64,000 nucleotides of DNA from a virus, in IMG/VR virus record IMGVR_UViG_3300028115_000004, positions 51,860-115,859 of that record; one strand, 5' to 3'. Of the stretch, positions 20,331-58,405 are shown in pieces. How positions within the stretch are numbered: the first letter of the stretch is position 1; the number at the start of each line of letters is the position of its first letter. The notes under the pieces are model-generated. The model saw nothing but the letters and a program-made list of their open reading frames with translations. It did not search any database and was not told the origin of the DNA. The translations under genes were made by a program, and so were the position numbers.

Positions 20331-21632
20331 ATGTTAAAGTTTTCAACCTTCCTGTCAGAGTCATCTCTCACTTTCGGTGAGATCACTCGTGATGACAGGG
20401 CGTTTCGTTTGGACTTGTTCCTGCGTAAGTACAAGGGCAATGAACCGTTTGATCTGACAGACGGTAGTCAGGTTGTCCTGAAGTACAACGCAGAGATTGA
20501 GAAGTCACTCAAGGCCAAAGACGCCAAGACTGCGAACTCTATTGGTTTGGAAACAAATGCGGGTGAGAAGATCGCCTTCGGTAAACTGGCCAAGTCTGCA
20601 GAGTTTGGTGGTGGACGTGGTTCGGGTGGCGGATCAGACAATACCCGTGCAACCGAATCCGCTCAGTGTGTCTACCTACAGTGTATCTGGGATGACCCCC
20701 AAACCAAATTCACTCCCGATGATATTCGCAACGCATACAAAAAGACTCACGTTGATGCCTCTATGGATGAGGTTCTACTTGGGGATGAGACTTGGATTTC
20801 CACATCTATTGACGCTGCACGTCTTATCCACAAGGTACTGAAGAGAAAGAAATACAGTTTCCATCGTGGGTCGAGTTGGGTCGATGCACTTGAGTCCAAG
20901 TTCAAAGAGGTCAATAAGAATGATGGTCGTCCTTTCGCAAACGTCAACAAGTGGACTCCTGCAGACATCTGGATGGTTGCAGAAGGGGCGGAAGGTAGAT
21001 ATGATATTCAGGGTGCGGAGTCCATCCAGTACCTCAATAACGAATTGATGAAAGCCTATGCAGAGAGGGACATTATCGGTGTCTCTCTAAAACAAACTGG
21101 CAAGAAACCAAGACTGGTTCAGGTCAACTACAAGGCTCCTTTCAAAGCTCCCAAGTTCACAAGAGTAACCTACGGTAAACGTGACTTCTTTAAATCGAAG
21201 GACGGTTATCTCTTTGGTGCGGGTGGTGTTGAAATGCAATTCCGTACCTATCCCACATTCCAGACTGAGGTAATTGGTAAGAACGCAAAACACGGTAAGG
21301 TCTCGCATGGTGGTATCGACGCTGCACTCTATGCGACAACTCGTGATAAGACCGAGAACCGTAAACAACTAGAAGCCTATATCAAGAAAGACCGTGAGGG
21401 ATTCCTTGACAAGTTCTATGGATTCTATACCTCTGCGGTACAAAATCCGGTAGACCGCCAGAAGTTCGGTGAAGAACTGGCGAGTAAGAATGTAGAGTGG
21501 TTGGTATCGAAATATTATGTCACATCTATTTTTGTGATGATCAGGGGACGTGAACAGGACTTCATGAGTTATCTGTATCGTGTCGCAAAGTCAGAATCAC
21601 CGCTCTCTGCGGTTCACTTAAAGGTAATGTAA
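20331..21632 (+). CDS. Late protein with capsid-targeting-like N-terminus
   Basis: 433 aa. The N-terminus LKFSTFLSESS resembles the T4 internal-protein targeting peptide (KTYQEFITEA), including a Glu where the gp21 protease would cut. The body is not recognised; it has a glycine-rich loop (residues 90-105, GGGRGSGGGS), several Lys-rich segments and a C-terminal helical part. I recall large conserved proteins of this kind in marine T4-like phages without known function. The ATG at 20331 is preferred over 20319 because GGGTAA sits upstream. The late promoter is 40 bases upstream. Internal capsid protein is an inference. Confidence 0.6.
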   Translation: MLKFSTFLSESSLTFGEITRDDRAFRLDLFLRKYKGNEPFDLTDGSQVVLKYNAEIEKSLKAKDAKTANSIGLETNAGEKIAFGKLAKSAEFGGGRGSGGGSDNTRATESAQCVYLQCIWDDPQTKFTPDDIRNAYKKTHVDASMDEVLLGDETWISTSIDAARLIHKVLKRKKYSFHRGSSWVDALESKFKEVNKNDGRPFANVNKWTPADIWMVAEGAEGRYDIQGAESIQYLNNELMKAYAERDIIGVSLKQTGKKPRLVQVNYKAPFKAPKFTRVTYGKRDFFKSKDGYLFGAGGVEMQFRTYPTFQTEVIGKNAKHGKVSHGGIDAALYATTRDKTENRKQLEAYIKKDREGFLDKFYGFYTSAVQNPVDRQKFGEELASKNVEWLVSKYYVTSIFVMIRGREQDFMSYLYRVAKSESPLSAVHLKVM

Positions 21633-21633
21633 C

Positions 21634-22353
21634 ATGGCTATATCTCATTATATGGAGGGAGACCTCTCACTCAATATTGCACGTGGTATTGTTCTCAATG
21701 CAAGCGCAGAACATAAATTTGGGGCGGTTCCCGCAATGTCAACCGGAGAAACCGGAACGATATGGGATATCAATGACACCCCATATCCTTGGACTGCATT
21801 TGATACTGCCGGAGTGTTAACCATTCCTCCAGTAAATGTTGCTGATAATGGCGGAACCGTAACCGTATTTGGTTTAGACGCAAATTACGAACCACAGACC
21901 GAATCTTTTGTTGTGTCAAATACACTAACAACTACCGGAACCAAAACCTTTAAACGAGTACATCGTGCATACTATACTGATGGTATCACTAATGTCGGTG
22001 CTATTGACATTCAACGTGGCGGTACAACTGTTGCAAGAATTTCAGTTGGTAAAGCTCAAACTCTTATGGCAGTCTATACAGTACCCTATGGATATACAGC
22101 ATACTTGTCTACAGGTACCATGTCTATCGAGAAAGGTGGTGATGCGAGTGGTAACTTTTTTGTTCGGTATTTCGGTCAATCATCCTTTCGAATAGCACAT
22201 TCATTCGAAGTTGGAGATGGTTCACAATACAAGTATAATTTCGCAGTACCTTTGGCACTTCCTGCGAAAACTGACATCGATGTAAGGTGTACTATGAAGA
22301 CTAACAATTCTCGTGCTTCTGCTGCGTTCGACATGATTCTAATTAAGGATTAA
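21634..22353 (+). CDS. Phage structural protein (decoration/fibre-like)
   Basis: 239 aa, beta-rich with many Gly, Thr and Asn. The segments GTIWDINDTPYPWTAFDTAG, VFGLDANYEPQTESFVVS and QTLMAVYTVPYGYTAYL resemble virion proteins found across marine phages (capsid decoration or tail-associated). It has no signal peptide and no Cys except one near the end. It lies between capsid-cargo-like genes in the late block. Confidence 0.6.
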   Translation: MAISHYMEGDLSLNIARGIVLNASAEHKFGAVPAMSTGETGTIWDINDTPYPWTAFDTAGVLTIPPVNVADNGGTVTVFGLDANYEPQTESFVVSNTLTTTGTKTFKRVHRAYYTDGITNVGAIDIQRGGTTVARISVGKAQTLMAVYTVPYGYTAYLSTGTMSIEKGGDASGNFFVRYFGQSSFRIAHSFEVGDGSQYKYNFAVPLALPAKTDIDVRCTMKTNNSRASAAFDMILIKD

Positions 22354-22360
22354 TTCTATT

Positions 22361-23581
22361 ATGAATTTTTTAGAGTTTATCACAGAACAGAAAAATACTC
22401 ACATGACCCATATTGAGGACAAGGTTCTCTATGGGGGTGTCAAGGGTACACGAGAAGCAATCTTTGCCTTGCGTGAGTTACGTGACATGTTGTCAGGTAA
22501 ACACGAGGGGAAAGTTTCTGTTAAGTGGGACGGTGCGCCTGCAATCTTCTGTGGTCAAGACCCCCGAGACGGTAAGTTCTTTGTCGCCAAGAAAGGTATC
22601 TTTGCGAAGAGTCCCAAGGTCTACAAGACAGATGCAGAGATCGATGCGGACATGTCAGGTGACCTCGCAGACAAGATGAAGGCTGCATTGCAATACTTAC
22701 CCGCATTGGGAATCAAGGGTGTCATTCAGGGAGACTTCCTGTTTGGGCCTGGCGATCTACAGAGAAAGAAAATAGACGGAGAGTCCTATGTTACGTTTCA
22801 TCCTAATACTATTGTATATGCTGTTCCCGTTAAAATGGCTTCTGATATTCTGAAAGCGAAGATCGGTATTGTATGGCACACCACCTACACGGGTAATGAC
22901 TTCGAATCCATGAAGGCATCCTATGGTGTGAACGTGTCCAAGTTCAAGAAGTCTACTGCAGTCTGGTCTCAGGATGCGATGTTACGAGACGTTACCAAGG
23001 CAACCATGTCTGCGAGTGACACCGAAGAAGTTAATGGATACCTAAGTACTGCAGGCAAATTGTTCAATAAGATTGCCGGATCGACCCTTCGTGAGTTAGA
23101 ATCAAAACAACACATTGCACAACTGATCGAACAGTACAACAACACTTTTGTGCGGCAAAATCAAGTGATTGGCGACACTAATCTGCACGTAAGAGGGTTG
23201 ATCAAGTGGATCAACGATAAGTTCCAGAAAGAGGCTGACAAACGTTCTACTGAAAAGGGTAAGGCAACACAGTATACAAAACGAGACGAAATCCTAGAAT
23301 TCTTCTCACCCAAGAACCGTAAGTCTCTGGTTAATATGTTTGATTTGCAAAAAAGTATCGTACTTGCGAAGTTAAAACTTATAAATAAACTTGATAGTTT
23401 AAAGAAGATTGATACTTTTGTTAAGACCAAACAGGGGTATAAAGTAACCGGAGAAGAAGGTTACGTTGCAATCGATAAACTTGGTGGTGATGCGGTGAAA
23501 CTTGTTGATCGTATGGAATTCTCATACAACAACTTTTCACCAGATATACTTAAGGGATGGGATAAACCAACGAGAAACTAG
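22361..23581 (+). CDS. Nucleotidyltransferase/ligase-like protein with capsid-targeting-like N-terminus
   Basis: 406 aa. The first residues, NFLEFITEQ, match the T4 capsid-targeting peptide (KTYQEFITEA). The next domain has a KxDG motif, VKWDGAPAIF (Lys55-Gly58), followed by FFVAKKGIF and IQGDFLFGPGDL, which fit motifs I, III and IV of covalent nucleotidyltransferases (RNA/DNA ligases). The C-terminal half is Lys-rich and helical. I recall related conserved proteins in marine T4-like phages. Inferred role: a packaged enzyme that seals or modifies nucleic acid on injection. Motif V is not clear to me, so activity is uncertain. Confidence 0.6.
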   Translation: MNFLEFITEQKNTHMTHIEDKVLYGGVKGTREAIFALRELRDMLSGKHEGKVSVKWDGAPAIFCGQDPRDGKFFVAKKGIFAKSPKVYKTDAEIDADMSGDLADKMKAALQYLPALGIKGVIQGDFLFGPGDLQRKKIDGESYVTFHPNTIVYAVPVKMASDILKAKIGIVWHTTYTGNDFESMKASYGVNVSKFKKSTAVWSQDAMLRDVTKATMSASDTEEVNGYLSTAGKLFNKIAGSTLRELESKQHIAQLIEQYNNTFVRQNQVIGDTNLHVRGLIKWINDKFQKEADKRSTEKGKATQYTKRDEILEFFSPKNRKSLVNMFDLQKSIVLAKLKLINKLDSLKKIDTFVKTKQGYKVTGEEGYVAIDKLGGDAVKLVDRMEFSYNNFSPDILKGWDKPTRN

Positions 23582-23582
23582 A

Positions 23583-24032
23583 ATGTCTAAACCGTTACGA
23601 TTTAAAGATTTTGTAAGCGTAGATTACACTCAGTCGGGTGATGATCAACTTGCAAATCAATCAAAGAAAAGAAAAGAACACATCCCCACAGGTAACACTG
23701 GCGAGGCGTTAGACTTTACTGCTCGTCGGAAACTTGCTCGTTCCATGAAAAAGAATAAAGCAAAGATTGCGATTGGTCGTAAGAGGGCCGCACGTAAGTT
23801 TGCAGACATGGACAAACTCAAGAAACGTGCACAGAAACAGGCACGTATGACATTCTTTAAGAAAATCACCAAAGGCATGTCCAAGGACGAACTCTCCTTC
23901 GCACGTAGACAGGATATTGAGAAACGTCTAGATAAGATGAAACCTAAGATTGATAAACTAGCTCGCAAACTTCTTCCTAAAGTTCGCCAGCAAGAAAAAG
24001 ACCGTAAGCGTGGCGGAAACGATGATGATTAA
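23583..24032 (+). CDS. Small highly basic late protein (core/internal protein-like)
   Basis: 149 aa, extremely Lys/Arg-rich (RRKLARSMKKNKAKIAIGRKRAARKFADMDKLKKRAQKQ), predicted long helix. The N-terminus (SKPLRFKDFVSVD) only weakly resembles the capsid-targeting peptide. High charge and position in the late block fit a DNA-associated internal head protein. I recall homologous IGRKRAxRK proteins in marine T4-like phages. The ATG at 23583 follows the previous stop directly. Confidence 0.65.
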   Translation: MSKPLRFKDFVSVDYTQSGDDQLANQSKKRKEHIPTGNTGEALDFTARRKLARSMKKNKAKIAIGRKRAARKFADMDKLKKRAQKQARMTFFKKITKGMSKDELSFARRQDIEKRLDKMKPKIDKLARKLLPKVRQQEKDRKRGGNDDD

Positions 24033-25488
24033 GAATTTTTCACAATACCTGATCGAAGAAGAAAGAGAAGTTTATTTTACCTTTGGTAGAATGAACCCAC
24101 CTACTATTGGTCACGGTAAAGTGATGGACACCCTTTCAACCAAGTCTGGAAAAGCAGACTATAAGGTGTATGTGTCCCAACAGAGTAATCCGAAGAAAGA
24201 CCCTCTCTCGTATTCAGACAAAGTAAAACACATTCGTAAGATGTTTCCAAAACATGCACGTAATGTGATGATCGACAAGAACATCAAGAACGTCTTCGAT
24301 GTCGCTTCCCGTCTGTACGATCAGGGTTACAAGAGAATCACGATGGTGGTTGGAGAAGACCGCATTCGTGAGTTTGACGTGTTGTTGAACAAGTACAACG
24401 GTGTCAAGGCTCGTCACGGATTCTACAACTTTGAGAACATTAATGTAGTCTCTGCTGGTAAACGTGATCCCGATGCAGAGGGTGTTGAAGGTATGTCCGC
24501 ATCGAAGCAACGTGAGAATGCGAAGAACAATGACTTCGTTACGTTCGCTCAGGGTGTACCCAAAACAATGTCTGACAAGGATGCACGTAAACTCTTTAAC
24601 GATGTGCGTAAGGGAATGGGTCTCAAAGAAGAGCGTTCTTTCAAGAACCACATCGAACTTATGCCTGTTTCTGAAACAAGAGAACAGTACGTACAAGGGG
24701 AACTGTATGGGCTCGGTGATACAGTCGTTATCAAAGAGACTGAAGAAGTGGGTACAGTCTCGTTGCTCGGGGCAAATTACGTTATCGTCGAACGCTCAGA
24801 TGGCACTCGACTACGCAAATGGCTCGATGCAATCGAACTCGTTGAAAGACAAGACCCCGACATCAAAGACAGAGAGGGAACCCAACCCGCACGATACCAC
24901 TCTGGACTGAAGAAGTCCACCAAGGTTTCACGAGACGCTCACTTCAAGAAGCACGGTAAGAAGGCAGACGATGATGACTCTGCATACAAACCTGCGCCTG
25001 GCGATAAGACTGCAAAGACTAAACCTTCCAAGTACACCAAACAGTTCAAGGACATGTTTGATGAAAACGTAACCAAACAGGTAAAGGAAGAAATGGAGAT
25101 TACCTTTGAAGGTATCTTTGCTCGTTCGGATGGTAGTCCGGAAACCACCGCTCAAATGATTTCACGTTGGGCATCCAGAACCACCAAGAAAAAACAGTAC
25201 GATCAGGTTGCAAAATACATCCGTAAAGAGATGGAGAAGGATAAGGGTAAAAAGCATAGTGCAGAATATCATGCAGCTGAGGCTATTCGCAAATTTAACC
25301 TCAAGGGGTTTGATGACAGGGCACTTGCTCAGATCGTGAGAAACGAACAGACCGAAGAGACTGATCCTGTCAAGTCTGCACAGGATTCTATCGCTCGTGA
25401 GAAAGAACAAGACAAAAAGAAACATGACAAGATTCTTGACCGTGCAAGACTTGCACGTGCAAAACAAAAGAATAGGGAAACGAAATGA
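24025..25488 (+). CDS. Cytidylyltransferase-like protein with capsid-targeting-like N-terminus
   Basis: 487 aa. The peptide IKNFSQYLIEEE is followed at once by FTFGRMNPPTIGH (residues 19-30), the HxGH-type nucleotide-binding motif of NMN/FAD/glycerol-3-phosphate nucleotidyltransferases; MSASKQREN (near 155) fits the ISSTxIR motif. The last 250 residues are Lys/Glu-rich and may bind nucleic acid. Related proteins in marine T4-like phages carry nucleotidyltransferase annotations. Inferred: packaged enzyme acting early in infection, perhaps on NAD or nucleotides. ATGs at 24022 and 24025 are both possible. Confidence 0.65.
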   Translation: MIKNFSQYLIEEEREVYFTFGRMNPPTIGHGKVMDTLSTKSGKADYKVYVSQQSNPKKDPLSYSDKVKHIRKMFPKHARNVMIDKNIKNVFDVASRLYDQGYKRITMVVGEDRIREFDVLLNKYNGVKARHGFYNFENINVVSAGKRDPDAEGVEGMSASKQRENAKNNDFVTFAQGVPKTMSDKDARKLFNDVRKGMGLKEERSFKNHIELMPVSETREQYVQGELYGLGDTVVIKETEEVGTVSLLGANYVIVERSDGTRLRKWLDAIELVERQDPDIKDREGTQPARYHSGLKKSTKVSRDAHFKKHGKKADDDDSAYKPAPGDKTAKTKPSKYTKQFKDMFDENVTKQVKEEMEITFEGIFARSDGSPETTAQMISRWASRTTKKKQYDQVAKYIRKEMEKDKGKKHSAEYHAAEAIRKFNLKGFDDRALAQIVRNEQTEETDPVKSAQDSIAREKEQDKKKHDKILDRARLARAKQKNRETK

Positions 25489-25733
25489 AGCGTTATGCAC
25501 TCTGGGATAATCTGGGAAACCTAGAAGAGGGGCCTGATGGACTCGCTGCAAAAGCGAAGAAGTCGGGTATCTCCGTTGATACCTTGAAGAAGGTATACAA
25601 CCGTGGGGTTGCCGCATGGAAGACCGGACATAGACCAGGCACTACTCCCCAACAGTGGGGTATGGCAAGAGTGAATGCGTTCATCGTTAAAAAGAAGAAA
25701 GGCAACCTTAACCACGACAAGGATCTTGCATAA
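25485..25733 (+). CDS. Small conserved phage protein (DUF5824-like)
   Basis: 82 aa. The core SGISVDTLKKVYNRGVAAWKTGHRPGTTPQQWGMARVNAFI is a conserved module in T4-like marine phages (DUF5824 as I remember it). In other phages it may occur as a domain of longer proteins; here it stands alone. It is basic at the C-terminus. It overlaps the previous gene at ATGA. Confidence 0.7.
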   Translation: MKRYALWDNLGNLEEGPDGLAAKAKKSGISVDTLKKVYNRGVAAWKTGHRPGTTPQQWGMARVNAFIVKKKKGNLNHDKDLA

Positions 25734-26675
25734 ATGAAAACGTTAAAAGAATTACGTGAGAAGTCAGTCTCACAAGCCCAACAAAAGATGATGGGTATGG
25801 CACTCGCATACAAGCGTGGTGAGATGGACGATGCGTCACCCGAAGTCAAGAAGATGGCAAACTCTATGTCTACGAAAGACCTAGAAGACTTCGCAAAGAC
25901 CAAACACAAAGGTCTACCTGCGAAGAGAGTTGCAGAGGGTTTCACTCCTAAAGAAATCAAGATGGCAATCGGTGTTGCATCTGATAAACGATATGCGGAT
26001 GGTAACTACACTGGTGCGGTCAAGGCTATCGAAAAGATCAAGAAGGGTCTATCTAAACATAGTCAAGTAGCGGCAGTTCTCAAGAGACAGAACGAGTCAA
26101 CAGAACTTGTTTCTGAAGCAATTGATTTCTTCAAGGTCGCAAAAGCATTCGATGACTATGCGAAGAAGCATGGTGGTATCGATAAGTCATCCTTCATGAA
26201 GGTCGGTCAGTTTGTTCGTCAACTTGGTAAAGAGTCAGACGTAAACAAGCAGGACAAGACTTTCATGGCGATGAAGAAGTTTATTGGTGCAATGGACACT
26301 GACCCCCGTGATGGTGTGATCCAAATCCTCCAGAAGCATGGTATGTGGAAGAATGGTCGAATCATGCGTGAGTATCACGCTCAGAAGGAAGGAGTTGATT
26401 TCTTCGCACTGAGAGAAAAGAAAGACTCGTACCCTCTCTACCACAAGACTTATTCAGGTGCAATGGCTGCCGCATATGAGTATGCGAAGAAGAAGGGTTA
26501 CGAAGTAGACCCCGACGATATTGATCGTAAGGTTGCAACTGGCCCTCGCAAACCGTCCAACGGTAAGACCAACAGTTTCACTCTCAAGTTAAAGGATGAG
26601 AATCGTAAGATGCTAGCAGTACAGGTGACCAATCTGGACAACAAGCGTTACGAACTCAATACCTATATCACATGA
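25734..26675 (+). CDS. Late protein with DUF3008-like N-terminus
   Basis: 313 aa. The N-terminal SQAQQKMMGMALAYKRGEMDDASPEVKKMANSMS region resembles DUF3008, a short helical module in phages. The middle (residues 120-215) is helical, and the C-terminus (YPLYHKTYSGAMAAAYEYAKKKGYEV...RKVATGPRKPSNGKTNSFTL) is a beta-rich domain that I recall at the end of several marine T4-like phage proteins. Several Lys-rich linkers suggest DNA or core contact. Function unknown. Confidence 0.65.
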   Translation: MKTLKELREKSVSQAQQKMMGMALAYKRGEMDDASPEVKKMANSMSTKDLEDFAKTKHKGLPAKRVAEGFTPKEIKMAIGVASDKRYADGNYTGAVKAIEKIKKGLSKHSQVAAVLKRQNESTELVSEAIDFFKVAKAFDDYAKKHGGIDKSSFMKVGQFVRQLGKESDVNKQDKTFMAMKKFIGAMDTDPRDGVIQILQKHGMWKNGRIMREYHAQKEGVDFFALREKKDSYPLYHKTYSGAMAAAYEYAKKKGYEVDPDDIDRKVATGPRKPSNGKTNSFTLKLKDENRKMLAVQVTNLDNKRYELNTYIT

Positions 26676-27184
26676 AATCATTTCAAGAACATTGCGACTG
26701 CGGAACAGAATCCAGACTCGTAGAGAACAATCCCTACCGTGTTGGTAGTGAGAAGTACTATGAGTACTGGAAAGATGTGCGTGAGCAGTATTACAACGGT
26801 GAACTGGAGATTGACACCCATGAGTTAGATATCATGGAGTCTGATCTGGGAACCTTTGCTCACGTCGATGGTCAAAATGTTGCCTTGGATTGCATTTTCG
26901 AAGAAGAGAAACAACCGGAACTGAACAAACCCAAAGCGGGTGGCCCGAAGAAGTACTACGTGTACGTCAAAGACCCCTCGACTGGTAACATCAAGAAAGT
27001 CTCGTGGGGAGATACCACAGGACTAAAGGTTAAGTTGAACGACCCTGCAGCTCGTAAGAGTTTTGCGGCAAGACATAAGTGTGCACAACAAAACGATAAG
27101 ACAACTGCTGCATACTGGGCGTGTAGATTGCCTAGATACGCAAAACAATTAGGACTGAGTGGTGGCGGATCGTTCTTCTGGTAA
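26672..27184 (+). CDS. Conserved late protein, prohead-core-like
   Basis: 170 aa. The N-terminus KSFQEHCDCG is a degenerate form of the targeting-like peptide. The C-terminal domain (KKYYVYVKDPSTGNIKKVSWGD, then SFAARHKCAQQNDKTTAAYWACRLPRYAKQLGL) is a recurring module in marine T4-like phages and often carries two conserved Cys, as here. It overlaps the next frame by 26 bases. Function unknown; structural or core role inferred from context. Confidence 0.65.
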   Translation: MKSFQEHCDCGTESRLVENNPYRVGSEKYYEYWKDVREQYYNGELEIDTHELDIMESDLGTFAHVDGQNVALDCIFEEEKQPELNKPKAGGPKKYYVYVKDPSTGNIKKVSWGDTTGLKVKLNDPAARKSFAARHKCAQQNDKTTAAYWACRLPRYAKQLGLSGGGSFFW

Positions 27185-29193: not shown

Positions 29194-29787
29194 ATGGGAT
29201 TGCTTAAAAGTGCTGCGGATGTTGTCTACACGATCCGATTTCTAAAACTTCTTGTAACACCAATAGAAGACACCGAAGCATACAAGTTAGGTATCATCGA
29301 TGAGAAGGGTAAAAGACGCAAGGACTTCGACGACAACACAATGGAAAATCGTGAGGCCTTGCGAGACAACTACACTGCATTCCACAGACTTGTCTACAAC
29401 ATCAAGAAACTCATGGCAAAGGCGCCTGGCGGAAGTTCTCGCCTCGCATCCTATGCAGCTGCGTTATACCTTATCAAGGAACACGGAAACCTAGACGACA
29501 AGGGTCTAGAGAAAATCCATAAACAAACAGGCATCGATAGTCTTGACATGCTCGCTGAGGAAACGAAGTGGTACATGTTGAGAAACGATGAACTGTCGCC
29601 TGGCGTCTACAGGATGAAGAATCCTACGATGACCGCAAACTATGCCGATGTGGTCGAGTCAGGTGATCAAGTGAGAATCGTTGACGGTAATCCGATCAAC
29701 GAAGTTTTTGGAATAAAAATCTATCAGGCATCCCATCTGAAGTCTCAACAAAGTCTATATATTACTACCGGAGAAATAACGAAGTGA
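29194..29787 (+). CDS. Conserved late protein
   Basis: 197 aa. The start GLLKSAADVVYTIRFLKLLVTPIEDTEAYKLGIID is typical of a conserved protein of marine T4-like phages located in head-gene regions. The middle is helical and contains GSSRLASYAAALYLIKE; the last 60 residues are beta-rich. Function unknown; head assembly or core role inferred from context only. It overlaps the next gene at ATGA. Confidence 0.65.
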   Translation: MGLLKSAADVVYTIRFLKLLVTPIEDTEAYKLGIIDEKGKRRKDFDDNTMENREALRDNYTAFHRLVYNIKKLMAKAPGGSSRLASYAAALYLIKEHGNLDDKGLEKIHKQTGIDSLDMLAEETKWYMLRNDELSPGVYRMKNPTMTANYADVVESGDQVRIVDGNPINEVFGIKIYQASHLKSQQSLYITTGEITK

Positions 29788-29990
29788 AGTCTTTCAGTAA
29801 GTTCTACGAAGAAATGACTGGAACCAGTGCCGTACCTGGCGCTGGAGATGACTCTTCTACCGTTGTTGTTCGGAAGAAGCCTGCTGTCCGCAAGAGAAAA
29901 GAGTGGTCAGACAAGTATAAGAAATCTATAGACTGTGACAGCCCTAAAGGGTTTAGTCAGAAAGCACACTGTGCTGGGAGAGACAAATGA
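29784..29990 (+). CDS. Small basic late protein with capsid-targeting-like N-terminus
   Basis: 68 aa. KSFSKFYEEM resembles the T4 targeting peptide, and the rest is a Lys/Arg-rich tail ending in DCDSPKGFSQKAHCAGRDK, a C-terminal motif with two Cys that recurs in marine T4-like phage proteins. A packaged DNA-associated peptide is plausible. It closes the late block before a sigma70 promoter. Confidence 0.6.
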   Translation: MKSFSKFYEEMTGTSAVPGAGDDSSTVVVRKKPAVRKRKEWSDKYKKSIDCDSPKGFSQKAHCAGRDK

Positions 29991-40943: not shown

Positions 40944-40949
40944 AAACGC

Positions 40950-43091: not shown

Positions 43092-43117
43092 AATGACAAT
43101 AACAAAAGGAACCCGAT

Positions 43118-43441: not shown

Positions 43442-43455
43442 ACATAAGGTAGATT

Positions 43456-45292: not shown

Positions 45293-45296
45293 AGAT

Positions 45297-46297: not shown

Positions 46298-46313
46298 CCC
46301 TATTGCACAATAT

Positions 46314-47123: not shown

Positions 47124-47126
47124 ATA
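47119..47126 (+). promoter_or_regulatory. T4-type late promoter
   Basis: TATAAATA; the TAA at 47121-47123 is the stop codon of the upstream gene. It drives the ferritin-like gene 50 bases downstream. Confidence 0.75.
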
Positions 47127-47175
47127 AGATTGGTGAATATCTATATTAAGAGTGTGAAACTAAAGGAGAACCAAT

Positions 47176-47874: not shown

Positions 47875-47877
47875 ATT

Positions 47878-48453
47878 ATGAAAATAGGACTCACTCAACG
47901 AGTCCTTCTATATTCTGAGAGATCAGGAATCACGGGTGACTTCTTAGATCACGATTGGTATTCATCACCACTCACTAAGAACCACACGTTGATTCCTGTT
48001 CCGAATAGAAGTGACTTAGATTATGATGAATTGGCAGAAGAATTAGACCTTCTCATCATCACAGGTGGTAAGAACGAAGACATTCGTATCATCACCGAAA
48101 CTGAACTTGCAACATCAATGGTCTCTCTTGGCAAACCCGTATTGGGTATTTGTCATGGCGCCTTTTTGTTGACTTCTATTTTGCGTGGACAGGTTGTAGA
48201 GGCGAAAGAACAACACTGGTTCTCTGAACACAAAGTCTTTGACATGCACAATGAAGAACATATTGTCAACAGTTTCCACACCACCTATATAAAACATAAA
48301 CCTCGTGGTTCGGTAGTACTTGCCAGAGACCCCGAAGGTGATGTAGAATCGTGGATCAAGGATAATATTTGTGCCATGGTATGGCATCCGGAACGTATGA
48401 AGAAACCTTGGGTTCCACCCGAGATTTTGGAGGCAACAGGACTTACGCTATGA
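47878..48453 (+). CDS. Class I glutamine amidotransferase-like hydrolase
   Basis: 191 aa. The nucleophile elbow PVLGICHGAFLL (near residue 85, Cys) and the His/Glu pair WHPERM (near 160) match GATase1 enzymes, closest to the PuuD/gamma-glutamyl hydrolase group. It may release ammonia for a partner or hydrolyse gamma-glutamyl compounds. No synthase partner is adjacent. It overlaps the next gene by 4 bases. Confidence 0.8.
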   Translation: MKIGLTQRVLLYSERSGITGDFLDHDWYSSPLTKNHTLIPVPNRSDLDYDELAEELDLLIITGGKNEDIRIITETELATSMVSLGKPVLGICHGAFLLTSILRGQVVEAKEQHWFSEHKVFDMHNEEHIVNSFHTTYIKHKPRGSVVLARDPEGDVESWIKDNICAMVWHPERMKKPWVPPEILEATGLTL

Positions 48454-49109
48454 TGATTACTGTTAAGGAGGGGGAAACCCACTCCGTCAATGATATCTGG
48501 AACTTTGACATTCATGTATTTGGTAGGGGACTAAACCACCCCAGCTTCAAACCGAAAGGTACTGCATACTATATGCAGACTGATCAGGTTCAGGGTTCTC
48601 TAGCACACAATACATTTGCGGCCGCACAGACTACCGATGATGTTAACTTTAAGGTGATGCCCAACCATAAGGTTTGCGTCATTGATTTTCTTGGTTTGAA
48701 AATGAATGACGAACGCATCTTTAAGGTGAAGAGTGGTTCGCAGGGTAATCTGTCCTATATGGACGGTGGTACTAACACTACCGCAGTAAACCCTGGCCGT
48801 CTTGGTCTACCTGTAATCAACTATGTGCATTTCCCTGCTGGAATGCAACAGACTCTCCATACACACCCGAGTCACCGTGTTGGTCTCATCCTTACGGGTC
48901 ACGGTGAAGTAGAACTGGACAACCATAAAATCTTTCCTCTTGCGCCAGGCGATGTGTTCTTTATGGAGAGAAACACCCTTCACAATTTTATGTGTAATGA
49001 TGGTGAAGACGTTACCCTTTTCGTGTTTGCGCCTGACTCTGGTACAGGCCCAACAGATGAAGTTAACCCATTGAAGGTACGTACCTATGTCGGACAACAG
49101 CGAGTATAA
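48450..49109 (+). CDS. Cupin-domain protein
   Basis: 219 aa from ATG at 48450 (or 48453). The C-terminal cupin (residues 125-175) has the double HxHP motif LHTHPSHRVGLILTGHGEVELDNHKIF and a second His in ERNTLHNF. The N-terminal half is unrecognised. A metal-binding isomerase or dioxygenase-like role on sugars is possible. It overlaps the next gene by 23 bases. Confidence 0.7.
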   Translation: MMITVKEGETHSVNDIWNFDIHVFGRGLNHPSFKPKGTAYYMQTDQVQGSLAHNTFAAAQTTDDVNFKVMPNHKVCVIDFLGLKMNDERIFKVKSGSQGNLSYMDGGTNTTAVNPGRLGLPVINYVHFPAGMQQTLHTHPSHRVGLILTGHGEVELDNHKIFPLAPGDVFFMERNTLHNFMCNDGEDVTLFVFAPDSGTGPTDEVNPLKVRTYVGQQRV

Positions 49110-49761
49110 CAGAAACAGACCAATCGGAAAACGCATTCTATTGGTCACAGGCCCACAGGGTTCTGGTAATCACCTATTCAGTAAAATCCTTGGTCTCAGC
49201 GAACATGTCTATGGTTGGGACTTTGGAGAGAAGTATTGGATTCCGAGTGATGAGGAACCCTTCGCAGAATGTTGGGTCAACCCTGAACTGACCGTTCCTA
49301 CCCTAGAGAAGATCAAAGAGACCTACGTTGTCGCAAACGTCAGTGTCCCATTTGTCTTTGACGGAGAGAAAAGAATTCCTGCCATTCAGGAGTTCGTTGA
49401 TGAAGCGAAGAGTGCGGGTCATAGAGTAACTGTTTGTATCGTCTCTCGTGACCGTAACATCAACTGTCTTCAACAGGAAAGGGTAAGGGATGAAATAACC
49501 CTACCCACTGCGATGGCATACTATCGTTGTCTGGACAACTGTGATTTTGCGTTTCTATCCCACGAAACTCTATACCTACATAAATGTATGTACTTAAAGT
49601 CTTTGGGAAATATTCTAGGATTTCCTATTGACTACGACAACCCAAGAGTGTATGATATCCTAGTAGAAGATCAAAATAACAAATATGTAAAATATGTTGA
49701 GGAGCACTGGTTAGATAATGAAGTCTGGAAAGGTCTTAGACCCAAGTCTGAAAGAAAATAG
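49087..49761 (+). CDS. Sulfotransferase-like P-loop protein
   Basis: 224 aa. GPQGSGNHLFSKIL (residues 21-34) is the 5'-phosphosulfate-binding P-loop form seen in sulfotransferases. The later TVCIVSRDRNINCLQ could supply the Arg/Ser of the 3'-phosphate motif. It overlaps the next sulfotransferase-like gene by 44 bases. Acceptor unknown. Confidence 0.55.
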   Translation: MSDNSEYNRNRPIGKRILLVTGPQGSGNHLFSKILGLSEHVYGWDFGEKYWIPSDEEPFAECWVNPELTVPTLEKIKETYVVANVSVPFVFDGEKRIPAIQEFVDEAKSAGHRVTVCIVSRDRNINCLQQERVRDEITLPTAMAYYRCLDNCDFAFLSHETLYLHKCMYLKSLGNILGFPIDYDNPRVYDILVEDQNNKYVKYVEEHWLDNEVWKGLRPKSERK

Positions 49762-50335
49762 GTATATCCTATTCACAGGTGCGCCAGGCTCTCGTTGGTC
49801 TGGTGTCGCCAATATGATCTATCAAAGTTTAGACTTTGACATCTCAGATCAAACCGAAGAAAGAAGTTACCATCACAACTACAGTCAACTCCATTGTGGG
49901 GCTTACTTTGACCCTGGCATGGAGTATGATTTCAAACCAAGCGAATGGGACAAACCTTTCTCCGAAAAGGGAGAGGGGATTCGTCTCATTAAATCACACA
50001 CCCTTTCACGTCAAATCGACAACTTTAAAAAATACCCAATCATCATGGTCTATCGAAACGACTATGAGTGTATTGAGTGGTGGAAGGAAGCTGGTGGTTT
50101 CTCTATAGACTACCCCGACTATTGGTGGTATCAGAACATGGACAACATGTTCGATCATATACAGAAACAAAACTCTGGTATCATGAGGTTCATATATAAC
50201 AACAAGGATAAGGTAACTAAAGTCCGAGACTTATATGAGTTACTAGAACTATTTAATATATCAATTCTTGGAGTTAATAATGACACCTATGCGAAGAAGG
50301 ACGTTGTTGTCTATGTCTATAAACCCACACTATGA
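49718..50335 (+). CDS. Sulfotransferase-like protein
   Basis: 205 aa. FTGAPGSRWSGVANMIYQ (near residue 19) is a P-loop like the PSB loop, and IIMVYRNDYECIEWW (near 108) resembles the RxxxxxxxS 3'-phosphate segment, with the Arg present. It forms a pair with the previous gene. Tentative acceptor: a sugar hydroxyl. Confidence 0.55.
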   Translation: MKSGKVLDPSLKENRYILFTGAPGSRWSGVANMIYQSLDFDISDQTEERSYHHNYSQLHCGAYFDPGMEYDFKPSEWDKPFSEKGEGIRLIKSHTLSRQIDNFKKYPIIMVYRNDYECIEWWKEAGGFSIDYPDYWWYQNMDNMFDHIQKQNSGIMRFIYNNKDKVTKVRDLYELLELFNISILGVNNDTYAKKDVVVYVYKPTL

Positions 50336-50864
50336 TTTCTTGAAGGACTACTTCACTAATACGTGGCCCAGTTCAAGAACTGCGGGTTTGGATCAGTACT
50401 ATTGGACAGGATTTAGGTTAATCGATGAAATCAAAGAAAATGAGCGAGTCTTGGATGTGGGCTGCGGAGTTAATCCTTTTAAGCGGCATATTCACTGCCT
50501 TCACGGTATTGATATCACTGATATTGGAGCTGATGAAGTCTGTGCAATAGAGGACTATGAACTTGCAGAGATTTACGAAAAGAAGTATGATGTTGCGTTC
50601 TGTCTAGGTAGCATTAACTTTGGTGATATCGAACTTGTACGTACACAGGTGTATCGTGTGGCGGATTCACTGAAGGAAACAGGATCACGCATCTATTGGA
50701 GATGCAATCCAGGCCACAGAGATCATGGAAACAATAGGGTGGGTGAGATTCCGTTCTTCAATTGGAGAATACAGGATCACATCATGTTAGCAGAAGAAAC
50801 GGGATTTGAAGTGACTGAGTTTATGCCCGACAGAAATAGGATGTATGTAAAATGGGAACGTTAA
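50313..50864 (+). CDS. SAM-dependent methyltransferase
   Basis: 183 aa. Motif I is VLDVGCGVNPFK (near 48), with HGIDITD as motif II and FCLGSINFGD (near 93) as the post-motif strand. It is a class I methyltransferase, probably acting on a sugar or small molecule. ATG at 50313 is used, inside the previous gene. Confidence 0.8.
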   Translation: MSINPHYDFLKDYFTNTWPSSRTAGLDQYYWTGFRLIDEIKENERVLDVGCGVNPFKRHIHCLHGIDITDIGADEVCAIEDYELAEIYEKKYDVAFCLGSINFGDIELVRTQVYRVADSLKETGSRIYWRCNPGHRDHGNNRVGEIPFFNWRIQDHIMLAEETGFEVTEFMPDRNRMYVKWER

Positions 50865-51487
50865 GAGAATTATTCGACAAGTATGGGTGCGACAAAGGCA
50901 CCAAGAAACACAAGTACGACCGTTGCTACGAGGAATATATGGCAGACCGACGACACGATCAACTCAATATTCTTGAGATCGGTTGTTTTCGGGGTGAGAG
51001 TACTTGGGCGTGGCTCGAATATTTTCCTCATGCCACTATTTACACAATCGATATTTTTGAGAGACACACTCCGGATGATATCGATGTCCTCAAGGAAGAA
51101 CGTGTCAAGTGGTTGAAAGCGGACAGTATGAATGCCTCTCTTCCTATGAAAATGAGAAAGGAGTGGGGTGATGTTGAGTTCGATTTCATCATCGATGATG
51201 GTGCACACTGGCCTCAGGCAAACAGACTGACCTTCGAAAACTGTATGCAGTTTCTAAAGGAAGACGGTGCATACTTCATAGAAGACGTGTGGATGTTGGA
51301 TAGAATGAAGAGTCATCCGTGGGTGGATGCAAGACCTCAACTCTACAGTATGCCCGAACATGTTAGATTCATGAATACGGTTGAACAGTTTGACGTTAAA
51401 CACTATGACTACCGTACTACAACTGTTGCTGGTTCTGGTGCATATCCGGACGGTTACATTCTGAGAGTTAAGTATGGTGTCGAGTAA
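50852..51487 (+). CDS. Class I methyltransferase, sugar O-methyltransferase-like
   Basis: 211 aa. The pattern GCDKGTKKHKYDRCYEEYM...LNILEIGCFRGESTWAWLEYFPHATIYTIDIF with FIIDDGAHWPQAN matches O-methyltransferases of the TylF/rhamnosyl-methyltransferase group. It would methylate a hydroxyl of a sugar in the glycan. It overlaps both neighbours by about 13 bases. Confidence 0.82.
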   Translation: MGTLRELFDKYGCDKGTKKHKYDRCYEEYMADRRHDQLNILEIGCFRGESTWAWLEYFPHATIYTIDIFERHTPDDIDVLKEERVKWLKADSMNASLPMKMRKEWGDVEFDFIIDDGAHWPQANRLTFENCMQFLKEDGAYFIEDVWMLDRMKSHPWVDARPQLYSMPEHVRFMNTVEQFDVKHYDYRTTTVAGSGAYPDGYILRVKYGVE

Positions 51488-52166
51488 GTTGTTCATTCAT
51501 ATCCCTAAGAACGGGGGTATGACCATTCGTCGCAACGCAGAACTGCGTAAGATGATTATTCCTTGTACTCCCAATCACCACAAGAACAGGGAGTACACGA
51601 AAGGTCTGGAAGAAAAGATGAGACAGACTGGCGACGATATGGGTTACGAACACGCACGGTGGAGAGATGTCAAACCAGAGATTCGTGATAACTATCGTGC
51701 CTTTGCGATTGTTCGCAACCCTTGGTCTCGTGTGGTATCCCGATACTTCTTTGCAAAGAAAGTTATTGAGGTGGAGAAAGACTCCAACGTCTACGGTCAG
51801 AAGAACTATGCAGACGTGTCTTCGTTTGAGGCCTTTCTGGAAGAACGTCACAAGTGGGGTGGCGAAGAGTACATGTGGCATCGTGCAGTCCGTGGTTGGT
51901 ATCCGGCATACGATCATGTCTGTGATAAAGATGGTAAGGTAAGATGTGACATCCTTCGATTTGAAAACTACAATGAGGATGTCAAGGATTACTTTGGTGT
52001 ATTGTTCAATCCAGAACCTCGCAATGTGACAAACCTACATAAAGGTACGTATCAAGATATGTACACCGACAAGACGATTCAAATCATTGCTGATTGGTAT
52101 AAGAAGGACATTGATCACTGGGGATTTGATTTCGATACCGGAGCAACGAAGAATTACTGGATATGA
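51474..52166 (+). CDS. Sulfotransferase (family 2-type)
   Basis: 230 aa. The PAPS-binding P-loop FIHIPKNGGMTI (residues 7-18) and the 3'-phosphate motif AFAIVRNPWSRVVSRY (near 77) are complete and typical of carbohydrate sulfotransferases. It should transfer sulfate from PAPS to a hydroxyl on a glycan. This is the clearest member of the group of sulfotransferase-like genes here. No PAPS synthesis genes are in the window, so host PAPS would be used. Confidence 0.85.
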   Translation: MVSSKLFIHIPKNGGMTIRRNAELRKMIIPCTPNHHKNREYTKGLEEKMRQTGDDMGYEHARWRDVKPEIRDNYRAFAIVRNPWSRVVSRYFFAKKVIEVEKDSNVYGQKNYADVSSFEAFLEERHKWGGEEYMWHRAVRGWYPAYDHVCDKDGKVRCDILRFENYNEDVKDYFGVLFNPEPRNVTNLHKGTYQDMYTDKTIQIIADWYKKDIDHWGFDFDTGATKNYWI

Positions 52167-52167
52167 T

Positions 52168-53112
52168 ATGGACGTTGTTGAAGCGATAGAAATGGCAAAT
52201 AAAGTTGAGAGTCCCGAACCCACACAAGTAGATTTGGAAGGTAACCGTTATATCAAGGCGGTTATCATTTCACTTACTGGTGACGCAGCTGCGACACATG
52301 TTACTAGACGTTTGTTAAATTCAATTGAATATACTTGGTCTCGCATCAATCCTCTTATTCTTGATGCCTCTACACCTAATACTGCACAGAGAGGACTTGA
52401 GTCTATCACCTACTGTGACGTGACGAAAGCGCAATGGTCATGGCCTATCAATGAGTCTGACAATGGACTTGATTTGAGAACAGGACTCTACCGCAAAGCA
52501 TATCGTGCGAATGATATCAAGAAGGTTATTGCATGTATGGTCTCGCACATGCGGGCGTGGCAATATTGCATCGACATAAACGAACCCATGATGGTTTTAG
52601 AACAAGACGCTTTGTTCATTCGTCCTTTTAAGTGGGAAGATGTCTCTACACCCCGACCCCTAATGTTAACAGATCAGTGGTGGGAGAGATGGAAAGATAC
52701 TAAGGAGATGCAAGTACTCAATTGGGATGAAAAAACAAAGTGGGAGAATATGTCTAAGGTTGTTAAAGAACAACCAACAGGTTCTTTCACGGGCGGTATT
52801 CTAGGACTAAATTCTCCTATCGGTGCAACCCGTAAAGCATCGGTATATCACAATGCATTATTTGGTAAGTTTGGGTTCCATAAGGTTCCCTCTGTAGATC
52901 AGATCGGAGACGATCCTCTACCTCAAGGTATCGCAGGAAACTCTGCGTATATCATTAAACCGTGGGCTGCAAAGAAACTCTTGGACAAAGTTGCTGAGAT
53001 TGGTATGTGGCCTAATGACGCACTTATGTGCAAACAGTTCTTCCCTTGGATGCAGACATGCTGGCCATATTACAGTGTGGTTCAGGGAACAACCTCATCG
53101 ACGACAGGTTAA
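52168..53112 (+). CDS. GT25-type glycosyltransferase
   Basis: 314 aa from ATG at 52168. VIISLTGDAAATHVTRRLLNSI near 32 and CMVSHMRAWQYCIDINEPMMVLEQDALFI near 135 match the LPS glycosyltransferase family 25 (SH..W, then xxEDDAxF-type acidic motif, here LEQDAL). It transfers galactose or another sugar to LPS-type acceptors in known relatives. The start follows the sulfotransferase stop by one base. Confidence 0.78.
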   Translation: MDVVEAIEMANKVESPEPTQVDLEGNRYIKAVIISLTGDAAATHVTRRLLNSIEYTWSRINPLILDASTPNTAQRGLESITYCDVTKAQWSWPINESDNGLDLRTGLYRKAYRANDIKKVIACMVSHMRAWQYCIDINEPMMVLEQDALFIRPFKWEDVSTPRPLMLTDQWWERWKDTKEMQVLNWDEKTKWENMSKVVKEQPTGSFTGGILGLNSPIGATRKASVYHNALFGKFGFHKVPSVDQIGDDPLPQGIAGNSAYIIKPWAAKKLLDKVAEIGMWPNDALMCKQFFPWMQTCWPYYSVVQGTTSSTTG

Positions 53113-53113
53113 T

Positions 53114-53365
53114 ATGAAAGTATTGAATAACAGTGTTCTATTCACAGAACACAAAATGGATCAGACCACCGAGAGTGGTCTAGTTTTATCAACTAAACCT
53201 TCTGGTTCGAAACCCGCTGTGGTAATTGCGGTTGCAGAAGACGTTCCTTTGAAACCCGAACAGATCGTTTATCTGGACTGGTCAAAAGCACTACCCGTAG
53301 AACTTGACGGACTGCAGTGTGGTGTGGTAGAATATGAACACGTAAAACTCGTGGTAAGTGAATGA
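53114..53365 (+). CDS. 31: GroES/gp31-like co-chaperonin
   Basis: 83 aa. The pattern NNSVLFTEHKMDQTTESGLVLST (roof and mobile loop), VVIAVAEDVPLKPEQIVYLDW (barrel strands) and VEYEHVKLVV follow the GroES fold; T4 gp31 has the equivalent TESGL segment. It would cap the host GroEL to fold the major capsid protein. A small gene between two glycosyltransferase genes; it starts 1 base after the upstream stop and overlaps the next gene by 4 bases. Confidence 0.65.
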   Translation: MKVLNNSVLFTEHKMDQTTESGLVLSTKPSGSKPAVVIAVAEDVPLKPEQIVYLDWSKALPVELDGLQCGVVEYEHVKLVVSE

Positions 53366-54015
53366 AAAACTATGTAATCACTATCATGGACAATGAAAAG
53401 TCTGTAGAAGCTGCGGAACGTTGTATTCGTTCTGGAGTTAGGAACAACACCTTCATTGAAAAATTCCATGCGGTAACTCCAAATGACGATCCTGAAAAGA
53501 TTGCAGAACGAGAGGGTATCGATCCTCGTGGGTTCGAAGAGGTGTACTCACGTTACCTCAACTGTCTCTCTGCATTCCTATCTCACTATAGTTTGTGGAA
53601 GAAGTGTATCCGATTGAATACACCCATCACCATATTTGAACATGATGCCGTATTACTTGAACCCGTTCCTAACAAACCATTTGTGGGTTGTATGAATATC
53701 GGTGAACCTAGTTATGGTAAGTTCATTACACCCCAACACCTTGGAACAGGCCCACTGACTACTAAGAGGTACTTTCCAGGCGCTCATGCATATCAGGTAA
53801 ATCCACGTGGCGCAGAGTCACTGATTAGACAGGCAAAGGTGTTTGCGAAACCGACAGACGTGTTTTTGTCTATGGACACTTTCTCTTGGTTGCAAGAACA
53901 TTATCCATTCATTGCTAAGGCTGATGATAGTTTTACAACAATTCAGGTAGAACGTGGTTGCCTTGCGAAACACAATTATAATCAAGACTATGAGATTCTA
54001 AATGTTGGAAATTAA
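53362..54015 (+). CDS. GT25-type glycosyltransferase
   Basis: 217 aa. CLSAFLSHYSLWKKCIRLNTPITIFEHDAVLL (near residue 73-104) is the GT25 signature (SHxxxW and E-x-DA). It resembles the gene at 52168 and likely acts on the same glycan. It overlaps the next gene by 14 bases. Confidence 0.75.
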   Translation: MKNYVITIMDNEKSVEAAERCIRSGVRNNTFIEKFHAVTPNDDPEKIAEREGIDPRGFEEVYSRYLNCLSAFLSHYSLWKKCIRLNTPITIFEHDAVLLEPVPNKPFVGCMNIGEPSYGKFITPQHLGTGPLTTKRYFPGAHAYQVNPRGAESLIRQAKVFAKPTDVFLSMDTFSWLQEHYPFIAKADDSFTTIQVERGCLAKHNYNQDYEILNVGN

Positions 54016-54628
54016 CTCTCCTGAGAAGATTGCTGGTTCTCAAATCATTGATATGAAAGAACACGGTACACTTGGTTTTATTCATAATCCAAGGACGGGT
54101 GGGTCTTCCTTGAATGGTTGGCTTTATGATAACAAAAAACCAGAGTGGGATAGTTATAAGTTTAGACAACACCATGCCCGTGATAAGATGATGTCTTTAC
54201 ATATTAACGGTGAACCGTTTAAGATTGATAAGACGGTATGTATAGTTAGACACCCTTATATGAGATACCTAAGTTTTTGGCGGTACATAAATCGTGACAA
54301 AGCAAGGAAGGATCAAATATCTTTTAGGAAATTTTGGGAAGGGCCCGGCAACATTAATCAAATTCAAGCCTTCAGAAGACCCCAAACTATTTACTGGAAG
54401 GGGTGTGACATTATTCTTCGACATGAAGATTTGGTGAATGAAGTTGCGGTTAAGTTACAACCTATATTCCAGACTACCAATAGATTAGATACCTATAGAT
54501 ATAATTATCAGGGAGTGGACACAAGCTTGGTTGATGCACACGAGTCCATCCCGAAGGAGTTTCTTGCCGAAATACGTGAGATTGATTCTGAAACTTTTAA
54601 TGAATTTGGATACGGAGAATATGATTGA
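54002..54628 (+). CDS. Sulfotransferase-like protein
   Basis: 208 aa. GFIHNPRTGGSSLNGWL (near residue 25) is the PAPS P-loop and TVCIVRHPYMRYLSFW (near 79) the 3'-phosphate motif with Arg and Ser. Both are close to those of the enzyme at 51474, so these two are probable paralogues. Acceptor unknown. Confidence 0.72.
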   Translation: MLEINSPEKIAGSQIIDMKEHGTLGFIHNPRTGGSSLNGWLYDNKKPEWDSYKFRQHHARDKMMSLHINGEPFKIDKTVCIVRHPYMRYLSFWRYINRDKARKDQISFRKFWEGPGNINQIQAFRRPQTIYWKGCDIILRHEDLVNEVAVKLQPIFQTTNRLDTYRYNYQGVDTSLVDAHESIPKEFLAEIREIDSETFNEFGYGEYD

Positions 54629-57378: not shown

Positions 57379-57496
57379 AGAAGAATGTGTGTGGTTTCTA
57401 AAAAAGACATGGGAAGATTTTAAACACGTTTGGAAGGCTCATCCCAACGTTCATATTTGGTGGACTATTGCGTTCTTGATTGCCCTATTTGTATAA
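57362..57496 (+). CDS. Small membrane protein
   Basis: 44 aa (WQDIKEECVWFLKKTWEDFKHVWKAHPNVHIWWTIAFLIALFV) with an amphipathic helix and a hydrophobic C-terminus. It overlaps the previous gene by 17 bases. Its stop codon TAA lies in the late promoter TATAAATA at 57492. Conserved in marine T4-like phages as I recall; possible holin or antiholin-like role is speculative. Confidence 0.5.
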   Translation: MWQDIKEECVWFLKKTWEDFKHVWKAHPNVHIWWTIAFLIALFV

Positions 57497-57499
57497 ATA
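57492..57499 (+). promoter_or_regulatory. T4-type late promoter
   Basis: TATAAATA; TAA (57494-57496) is the stop codon of the upstream small gene. It drives the P-loop kinase-like cargo gene 34 bases downstream. Confidence 0.75.
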
Positions 57500-57532
57500 A
57501 ACATATAAATTTACTTTCAGGGTTCGCAGTCA

Positions 57533-58405
57533 ATGCAAAAGTTTACATCGTTCCTTACCGAACAAAACTTCTTGTTAGAAGAAGCAGAAACACTTCTAGA
57601 AAAACTGATCACCTTTGGTGGCAAAGCATATCCCAAGTACGGTAACATCGTCCTTATGGCCGGTGGTGCAGGATCGGGTAAGGGTTTTGTTCTGGGGAAT
57701 CTGGTTGGTTTAGAAGGTAAGGTTTTTGATGTGGATGAACTCAAGACTCTTGCATCTAAGACTCCCGCAATCAAGAGACGTGTCGCCAAAGAACTTGGTG
57801 TTGATCTGGAAGACCTTGCCAACAATCTCAAGAACACTGAGAATGTAGGCAAGCTCCATGACATCATGGGCGAGTATCTCAAGATCGACAAGCGTAAGGA
57901 ACAGGCATTCTACCGTAGTGTCCTCACTGCACCCGAAGATCGTAAACCCAACATCATCTTTGACATGACTCTGAAGTCCCTAGACAAACTCGACAAGGTT
58001 GCACGTGATGCATCTATGTTGGGTTATGACAAGAAGAACATTCACATCGTCTGGGTGGTCAACGACATCGAAGTTGCACAGAAACAGAATGCTGCACGTT
58101 CACGTACCGTATCTTCAGATATTCTAATCAACACTCATCGTGGTGCCGCAAACACTATGGGCGACATCATCAACATGGGGTCACGTCTCAAGAAGTACAT
58201 TGATGGAGACATCGTGTTCGCATTCAACAAAGTTGGTGTTGATGCAAACCTAGTCAAGTCGGGTAAGGGTGGTTCTTATGTCAAGGACGCAAACTACTTC
58301 TACGTAAAACGTGCGGGTAAAGCACCTACGTCCGTTGACAAGTTAGATAAAGAGATTCGTGCGAAGATCAAAGCCTACGTCCCGAAGAACGTAGACTGGG
58401 ATTAA
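57533..58405 (+). CDS. P-loop kinase (zeta-toxin-like) with capsid-targeting-like N-terminus
   Basis: 290 aa. The N-terminus QKFTSFLTEQNFLLEEA matches the T4 capsid-targeting peptide with a Glu for gp21-type cleavage. Walker A is GGAGSGKG (residues 44-51), and a zeta-toxin/kinase-like fold follows (NIIFDMTLKSLDKLDKVA near 145, NIHIVWVVNDIEVAQKQN). Such kinases phosphorylate sugars, nucleotides or peptidoglycan precursors. A late-made, capsid-packaged kinase that would enter the new host with the DNA is the inference. The stop overlaps the opposite-strand gene. Confidence 0.65.
   Translation: MQKFTSFLTEQNFLLEEAETLLEKLITFGGKAYPKYGNIVLMAGGAGSGKGFVLGNLVGLEGKVFDVDELKTLASKTPAIKRRVAKELGVDLEDLANNLKNTENVGKLHDIMGEYLKIDKRKEQAFYRSVLTAPEDRKPNIIFDMTLKSLDKLDKVARDASMLGYDKKNIHIVWVVNDIEVAQKQNAARSRTVSSDILINTHRGAANTMGDIINMGSRLKKYIDGDIVFAFNKVGVDANLVKSGKGGSYVKDANYFYVKRAGKAPTSVDKLDKEIRAKIKAYVPKNVDWD

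Follow-up and report, generated by a model that had tools for sequence, protein, structure and literature searches.

The stretch of DNA analysed here (the window, 64,000 nucleotides) covers positions 51860-115859 of a 115,859-bp IMG/VR virus record (IMGVR_UViG_3300028115_000004), and the remaining contig was also read. The contig belongs to a marine T4-like phage, the closest named relative of which is Phage C48C1 (assigned to Kyanoviridae). Five genes of the window, referred to by their first positions (20331, 22361, 24025, 29784, and 57533), encode proteins that start with a similar short peptide, hereafter called the label. The evidence described below indicates that this label is very probably a T4-type capsid-targeting sequence carried by late, unrelated, and mostly enzyme-like proteins.

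The labelled genes and their N-terminal peptide

The features concerned are listed below, with ranks and E-values from a profile trained outside the window and applied to 164 open reading frames (ORFs) of the contig.

20285..20292, + strand: T4-type late promoter TATAAATA, exact match, 34 bp before ATG 20319, upstream of the cargo operon
20331..20363, + strand: capsid-targeting-like peptide MLKFSTFLSES (rank 3/164, E 0.04)
20331..21632, + strand: 433-aa protein, phrog_1462; its S-SCSM1 homologue is a virion protein detected by mass spectrometry (MS)
22361..22390, + strand: capsid-targeting-like peptide MNFLEFITEQ (rank 1/164); F, aromatic/His, I/L, and E kept in 47/47 distinct relatives
22361..23581, + strand: DUF6267 protein (Pfam PF19782, E 3e-107) with invariant KWDG (K55, D57, G58) and EGYV...VKLVDR
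24025..24060, + strand: capsid-targeting-like peptide MIKNFSQYLIEE (rank 2/164); C48C1 has VIKNFSQYLLEEE
24025..25488, + strand: cytidylyltransferase-like protein with GRMNPPTIGH; orthologues MS-detected in virions of four cyanophages
29784..29816, + strand: capsid-targeting-like peptide VKSFSKFYEEM (rank 5, E 0.08)
29784..29990, + strand: ORF for a 68-aa protein carrying VKSFSKFYEEM
57492..57499, + strand: T4-type late promoter TATAAATA, 41 bp upstream of 57533
57533..57565, + strand: capsid-targeting-like peptide MQKFTSFLTEQ (rank 4, E 0.08)
57533..58405, + strand: zeta-toxin-like P-loop kinase (predicted), phrog_5268, with Walker A GGAGSGKG (Pfam Zeta_toxin 32.1 bits vs cut-off 22.3)

All five N-termini given in the initial annotation were read from the DNA, that of 24025 being MIKNFSQYLIEEE. 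The start codon was ATG for 20331, 22361, 24025, and 57533 and GTG for 29784, and ORF 20331 was also open from the ATG at 20319. All five proteins had the two aromatic targeting positions, spaced by three residues; L/I-x-E ended the peptide in four of them, and 29784 had Y-E-E.

A regular expression derived from T4 (M x0-4 [FYW]xx[FY][LIVM]xE) was compared with shuffled sequences. It matched 5 ORFs of the contig versus 0.48 in shuffles (maximum 3), namely four of the five label genes and, spuriously, an internal start within SbcD. In the complete relative C48C1, 9 ORFs were matched versus 0.52 in shuffles, and in T4 the three matches were ipII, ipIII, and gp61.1. Furthermore, a 10-column profile was trained on the T4 internal proteins (IPs) IPI-III and on MS-detected cyanophage virion enzymes (S-CREM2 included), with nothing from the window. 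This profile placed 22361, 24025, 20331, 57533, and 29784 at ranks 1-5 of the 164 contig ORFs, with E-values of 0.00, 0.00, 0.04, 0.08, and 0.08, respectively, the next ORF having an E-value of about 1. In T4, ipII, ipIII, 61.1, and ipI came out on top, the IPs being part of the training set and 61.1 not. T4 IPII and IPIII start with MKTYQEFIAEA, and IPI with MKTFKEFTS. T4 gp61.1 (NC_000866 18966-19130), a 54-aa protein of unknown function, starts with MKTFKEFIKED, similar to the IPIII targeting peptide, and may be a candidate for an unrecognised internal protein.

Pfam and PHROG searches indicated that the bodies behind the label are unrelated (DUF6267, cytidylyltransferase-like, zeta-like P-loop, and phrog_1462). 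The DUF6267 domain begins at residue 12 and the cytidylyltransferase domain at about residue 18. The label region was disordered in both AlphaFold models (residues 1-9 in the AlphaFold2 (AF2) model of 20331), which weakly favours a targeting peptide.

The label was conserved among relatives as F-x-x-[FYH]-[IL]-x-E, with drifting x positions. The 47 distinct DUF6267 N-termini had invariant F3 and E9, always F/Y/H at position 6 and I/L at position 7, and variable residues at positions 4 and 5. The 57533 family, with 40 distinct N-termini, had F4 in 36, F/Y/H7 in 40, and E/D10 in 38, the residues between being free. In the T4 IPIII peptide, residues 4 and 7 serve targeting and residues 8 and 10 processing (PMC9026906), and the conserved positions of the label match these. 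Its pattern of change is that of a binding peptide. A label is present on the zeta-like protein of RB43 (MKSFKDFVSLDEA) and on that of Aeromonas phage 65 (MKKFSEFIKLEE) as well; hence, the label is not restricted to marine phages.

Late promoters, head-assembly genes, and virion proteomes of relatives

The late promoter sequence TATAAATA was found within 100 bp upstream of the 20331 gene in 14 of 15 distinct relatives, compared with 1.2% of random stretches. Upstream of 57533 homologues, 49 of 58 distinct relatives had it, in most cases 33-47 bp away, compared with 2% of random stretches. It preceded DUF6267 in only 2 of 64 upstream regions, as expected for an operon-internal gene. The initial annotation had placed most label genes in or after late-promoter blocks; this held for 20331 and 57533. 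The genes from 22361 to 27184 lie downstream of the 20331 promoter in the same run, and 29784 has no late promoter of its own. Judged by promoter sequence, the label genes are late in expression.

A T4-type head cluster was found in the rest of the contig, outside the window, with genes for gp21 protease (Peptidase_S77, E 1.6e-40), gp22 scaffold (T4_CASP, E 1.3e-65), gp23 (Gp23 profile, E 6.9e-150), and a gp67-like prohead protein (weak match). The gene 21 protease that was to be sought together with the cargo genes is therefore encoded on the same contig. The contig gp23 reads FGSLTE-AAPGG at the position matching FGSFLTE-AEIGG of T4 gp23, the cleavage site of the T4 protein. Just upstream of gp21, a 67-aa ORF (contig 26664-26867) has the label-like start MKTFQQIREAK and its own TATAAATA 30 bp upstream.

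Orthologues of the cytidylyltransferase-like protein occur in the published virion proteomes of S-SM1 (PMC3037559), S-SCSM1 (PMC9602691), S-SZBM1 (PMC9146016), and S-CREM2 (PMC10665884). Read from DNA, all four virion-detected proteins start with the label: MKKFSAFLNEA in S-SM1 T4-GC190, MKSFLQFLKEA in the S-SCSM1 NMNAT, MRFRQFIIEA in S-SZBM1_140, and MKNFSSFLTEA in S-CREM2 ORF154. In S-CREM2, the strict label matched only 3 of 222 ORFs, a SAM hydrolase, an APH-like kinase, and the cytidylyltransferase, and all three are in the virion list. The same list holds the label-like ORF13 (MKDLHSFLTEQ), ORF15 (MNFSEFNESL), and ORF136 (MQTFSMFFSEDA), as well as the Cas9-like ORF12 (OR473000 7704-10313), in which the label-like PLRFASFMAEAA was seen by eye at residues 17-27. 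With a separate profile, not trained on S-CREM2, six of the eight top ranks were virion proteins against a base rate of 50/222 (p 0.002). In S-SCSM1, gp282 (homologue of 20331), the NMNAT, and the neighbours gp089, gp280, and gp279 are labelled as virion proteins. The DUF6267 protein of S-SZBM1 has no label, none being found upstream in frame, and is absent among the virion proteins quoted.

Stretches similar to the label were also seen at C-termini, namely KTFRDFLN in S-CREM2 ORF12, RTFKEFLEYIE in S-SCSM1 gp279, and REFKNFLSLIKSQL in gp21 of the contig, hinting that the label may also work C-terminally.

Predicted functions of the labelled proteins and neighbouring genes

The initial annotation had proposed three enzyme-like bodies. 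The cytidylyltransferase-like and the zeta-type P-loop proteins stand at the family level, whereas a KxDG ligase for 22361 is only plausible. In 24025, PPTIGH fits the (H/T)xGH motif, and the protein matched phrog_3041 (E 3e-71) and phrog_395 (E 1e-69); its score against Pfam CTP_transf_like was 20.8 bits, just under the cut-off of 21, and its family comprises 553 phage records. In C48C1 (OQ984149 63448-63513), the annotation misses the true cytidyltransferase start; the label VIKNFSQYLLEEE precedes the annotated ATG. The assignment of 57533, the family of which comprises 249 phage records, as a zeta-toxin-like P-loop protein holds at the family level, and a kinase or toxin activity is predicted. 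For 22361, a fold search of the AF2 model against the PDB gave weak matches (best E 0.17, not significant), in which ligases and capping enzymes predominated, and a nucleotidyltransferase/ligase-like function of DUF6267 is a plausible candidate; no papers on DUF6267 were found in the open literature. The 20331 protein had no Pfam match, and its AF2 model no significant match in a PDB fold search. Its family has an invariant PADI...SLK (D212...SLK254), by which motif only it is a candidate nuclease-like protein with a PD-(D/E)XK-type core. The weakest case of the five is 29784, with one homologue among 206 related loci. PDB sequence searches with 22361, 20331, 24025, and 57533 gave nothing significant, and PADLOC gave no significant match.

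Four further genes in the same run had been missed by the initial annotation, three with a degenerate label and one without.

23583..24032, + strand: small basic protein, degenerate label LRFKDFVSVD (MLSFKQFVSEV at the start of the C48C1 counterpart)
25485..25733, + strand: second half of DUF5824; relatives start with MINFKKYLDEK, and the label is lost in the window copy
25734..26675, + strand: DUF3008-containing protein (Pfam) with degenerate start MKTLKELREKS
26672..27184, + strand: protein whose start MKSFQEHCDCG is label-like and keeps the targeting positions but lacks the Glu (MKKFKQYIDEG in the C48C1 counterpart)

DUF5824 is divided at 24025-25733: one half lies C-terminally in the cytidylyltransferase-like protein and the other in ORF 25485-25733. 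About 130 residues separate the two, suggestive of an inserted module or a split gene. Judged by eye, the virion protein gp279 of S-SCSM1 resembles DUF3008. Positions 40023-54628, which separate the two cargo loci, hold a long series of ORFs that, again judged by eye, are methyltransferase-, glycosyltransferase-, and sulfotransferase-like.

Among 206 related viral-contig loci, the strict label was found on 217 distinct ORFs, most of them in four main families and the rest diverse. In 75 loci, the sequences of the gene directly upstream of DUF6267 formed 18 clusters, and several of these clusters were labelled. A D[IVLM]...[ES]xK pattern, as in PD-(D/E)XK nucleases, was present in 13 of 18 slot proteins examined versus about 1.3 expected from shuffles, the expression having been written after inspecting eight slot proteins. 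No Pfam model or fold supported the nuclease reading, and one slot protein of a relative gave a non-significant match to Pfam phiKZ_IP (E 0.034). A swappable, often nuclease-like slot upstream of DUF6267 is thus put forward as a lead only.

Probable packaging of the labelled proteins and alternative explanations

Packaging by a T4-type peptide, as the initial annotation proposed, is well supported by the label match, the unrelated bodies, the late promoters, the presence of gp21, gp22, and gp23, and the labelled orthologues in four cyanophage virion proteomes. Because the label is T4-like and labelled relatives were detected by MS in purified virus particles, the phage probably carries labelled enzymes along with its DNA. 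In the proposed course of events, the genes would be transcribed late from the TATAAATA promoters observed here. The aromatic-x-x-aromatic-hydrophobic peptide would then bind a gp22/gp67-type core, as in T4, and the proteins would be enclosed in the prohead, which the MS detection of labelled orthologues supports. The gp21 protease may then cut after Glu and free the bodies. Finally, once the head is filled with DNA, the proteins would remain inside it and exit together with the genome during infection, in the way of T4 Alt and the T4 internal proteins; activities of the nucleotidyltransferase, kinase, and perhaps nuclease type would thus appear in the host at once.

Several observations weigh against this picture. 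The residue after Glu is S, Q, E, or M in the five proteins but A in T4 and in the cyanophage cytidylyltransferases detected by MS; cleavage of the five is therefore uncertain. S-SCSM1 gp282 is in the virion although it has no recognisable label, and the strongly labelled gp030 of the same phage is not listed as a virion protein. When the profile was run against all S-SCSM1 virion proteins, no enrichment was found (p 0.64), as would be expected if most virion proteins are structural. In the published virion MS, which concerns other phages, 24025 is represented by its orthologues and 20331 by a homologue, but DUF6267, zeta-like proteins, and 29784 are not covered. Moreover, whole-particle MS can neither place proteins in the head nor by itself exclude carry-over.

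The peptide might direct the proteins into the prohead for another purpose than injection, as core or assembly factors or to act on packaged DNA. T4 gp21, gp22, and gp67 are also inside the prohead, gp21 may use a related N-terminal site (PMC9026906), a ligase/nucleotidyltransferase-like protein could work on DNA ends, and injection itself is deduced by analogy. However, the cargo differs from phage to phage and occupies a swappable slot, which fits host-directed effectors better than assembly factors, and we consider this explanation unlikely. Less probable still is that the virion orthologues are carried-over late cytosolic enzymes and that the N-terminal similarity serves, for example, translation initiation. 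The labelled proteins are late, and co-purification was called possible by the S-CREM2 and S-SCSM1 authors (PMC10665884, PMC9602691). Nevertheless, the non-tail enzymes detected in S-CREM2 (SAM hydrolase, kinase, cytidylyltransferase, and Cas9-like) are all labelled and unlabelled replication enzymes are not listed; furthermore, the label is conserved at the protein level, with variable residues between the conserved positions. An origin by chance or ancestry is very improbable, since, although five or six conserved positions are short and single chance matches such as the SbcD internal start occur, the shuffles (in the contig and C48C1) and the outside-trained profile rule out chance and the different families of the bodies rule out their common ancestry.

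By its testable sequence features, the label set belongs with the T4 capsid-targeting internal-protein system. Like the proteins described here, T4 IPI, IPII, and IPIII have an N-terminal M-x-x-aromatic-x-x-aromatic-hydrophobic-x-E, late genes, and gp21, gp22, and gp23, and the T4 IP repertoire is polymorphic, resembling the variable slot of the relatives (PMC9026906). The system differs from that of T4 in its large enzymatic cargo, operon, spread, and exchangeable slot: T4 IPs are small basic proteins, whereas the cargo here is large and enzyme-like, with several labelled genes in one late operon and a distant single gene, and its cleavage and injection are assumed by analogy. T4 Alt, an ADP-ribosyltransferase, is likewise an enzyme in the head delivered with the DNA, as the present cargo may be; however, it starts with MELITELFDED, without the label, and no ADP-ribosyltransferase is among the five. 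In phiKZ and SPN3US, the head holds many inner-body ejection proteins, which a gp21-like protease cuts after Glu-type sites, and similar cutting may occur here; their proteins and propeptides differ from those of the window.

A close likeness is also seen to S-SM1, S-SCSM1, S-SZBM1, and S-CREM2, with their MS-detected, labelled orthologues. The initial annotation knew of no description of such a cargo. In fact, virion cytidylyltransferase/NMNAT, SAM hydrolase, and kinase have been published (PMC3037559, PMC9602691, PMC9146016, PMC10665884), so that cytidylyltransferases in cyanophage virions were already known. These papers treat the cytidylyltransferase/NMNAT, the APH kinase, and the SAM hydrolase as unexplained virion enzymes or possible carry-over, and the portions considered mention no targeting peptide. 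A link of the virion cytidylyltransferases to T4-type targeting peptides was not found in the open literature searched, which leaves out most subscription papers; what this literature offered on capsid targeting were reviews on T4 and its head, an SPN3US paper, and a T4 omics paper.

Virions of cyanophages and other marine T4-like phages are known to hold unexplained enzymes, the authors having been unable to tell cargo from contamination, and a T4-type label offers a simple explanation. T4 capsid targeting, a system for small internal proteins, would thereby be extended to large enzymes of phages that abound in the sea. In uncultured phages, the label points to genes whose products are likely injected, and the question becomes testable; labels are also candidate tags for loading proteins into such phage heads. 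There is about an even chance that, across the T4-like phages (Kyanoviridae and Straboviridae), the label denotes an entire class of first-strike effectors packaged in the head, with modular, swappable cargo and a slot upstream of DUF6267 holding many unrelated proteins, often labelled and D...(E/S)xK nuclease-like. If true, injected effector sets would be readable from sequence alone.

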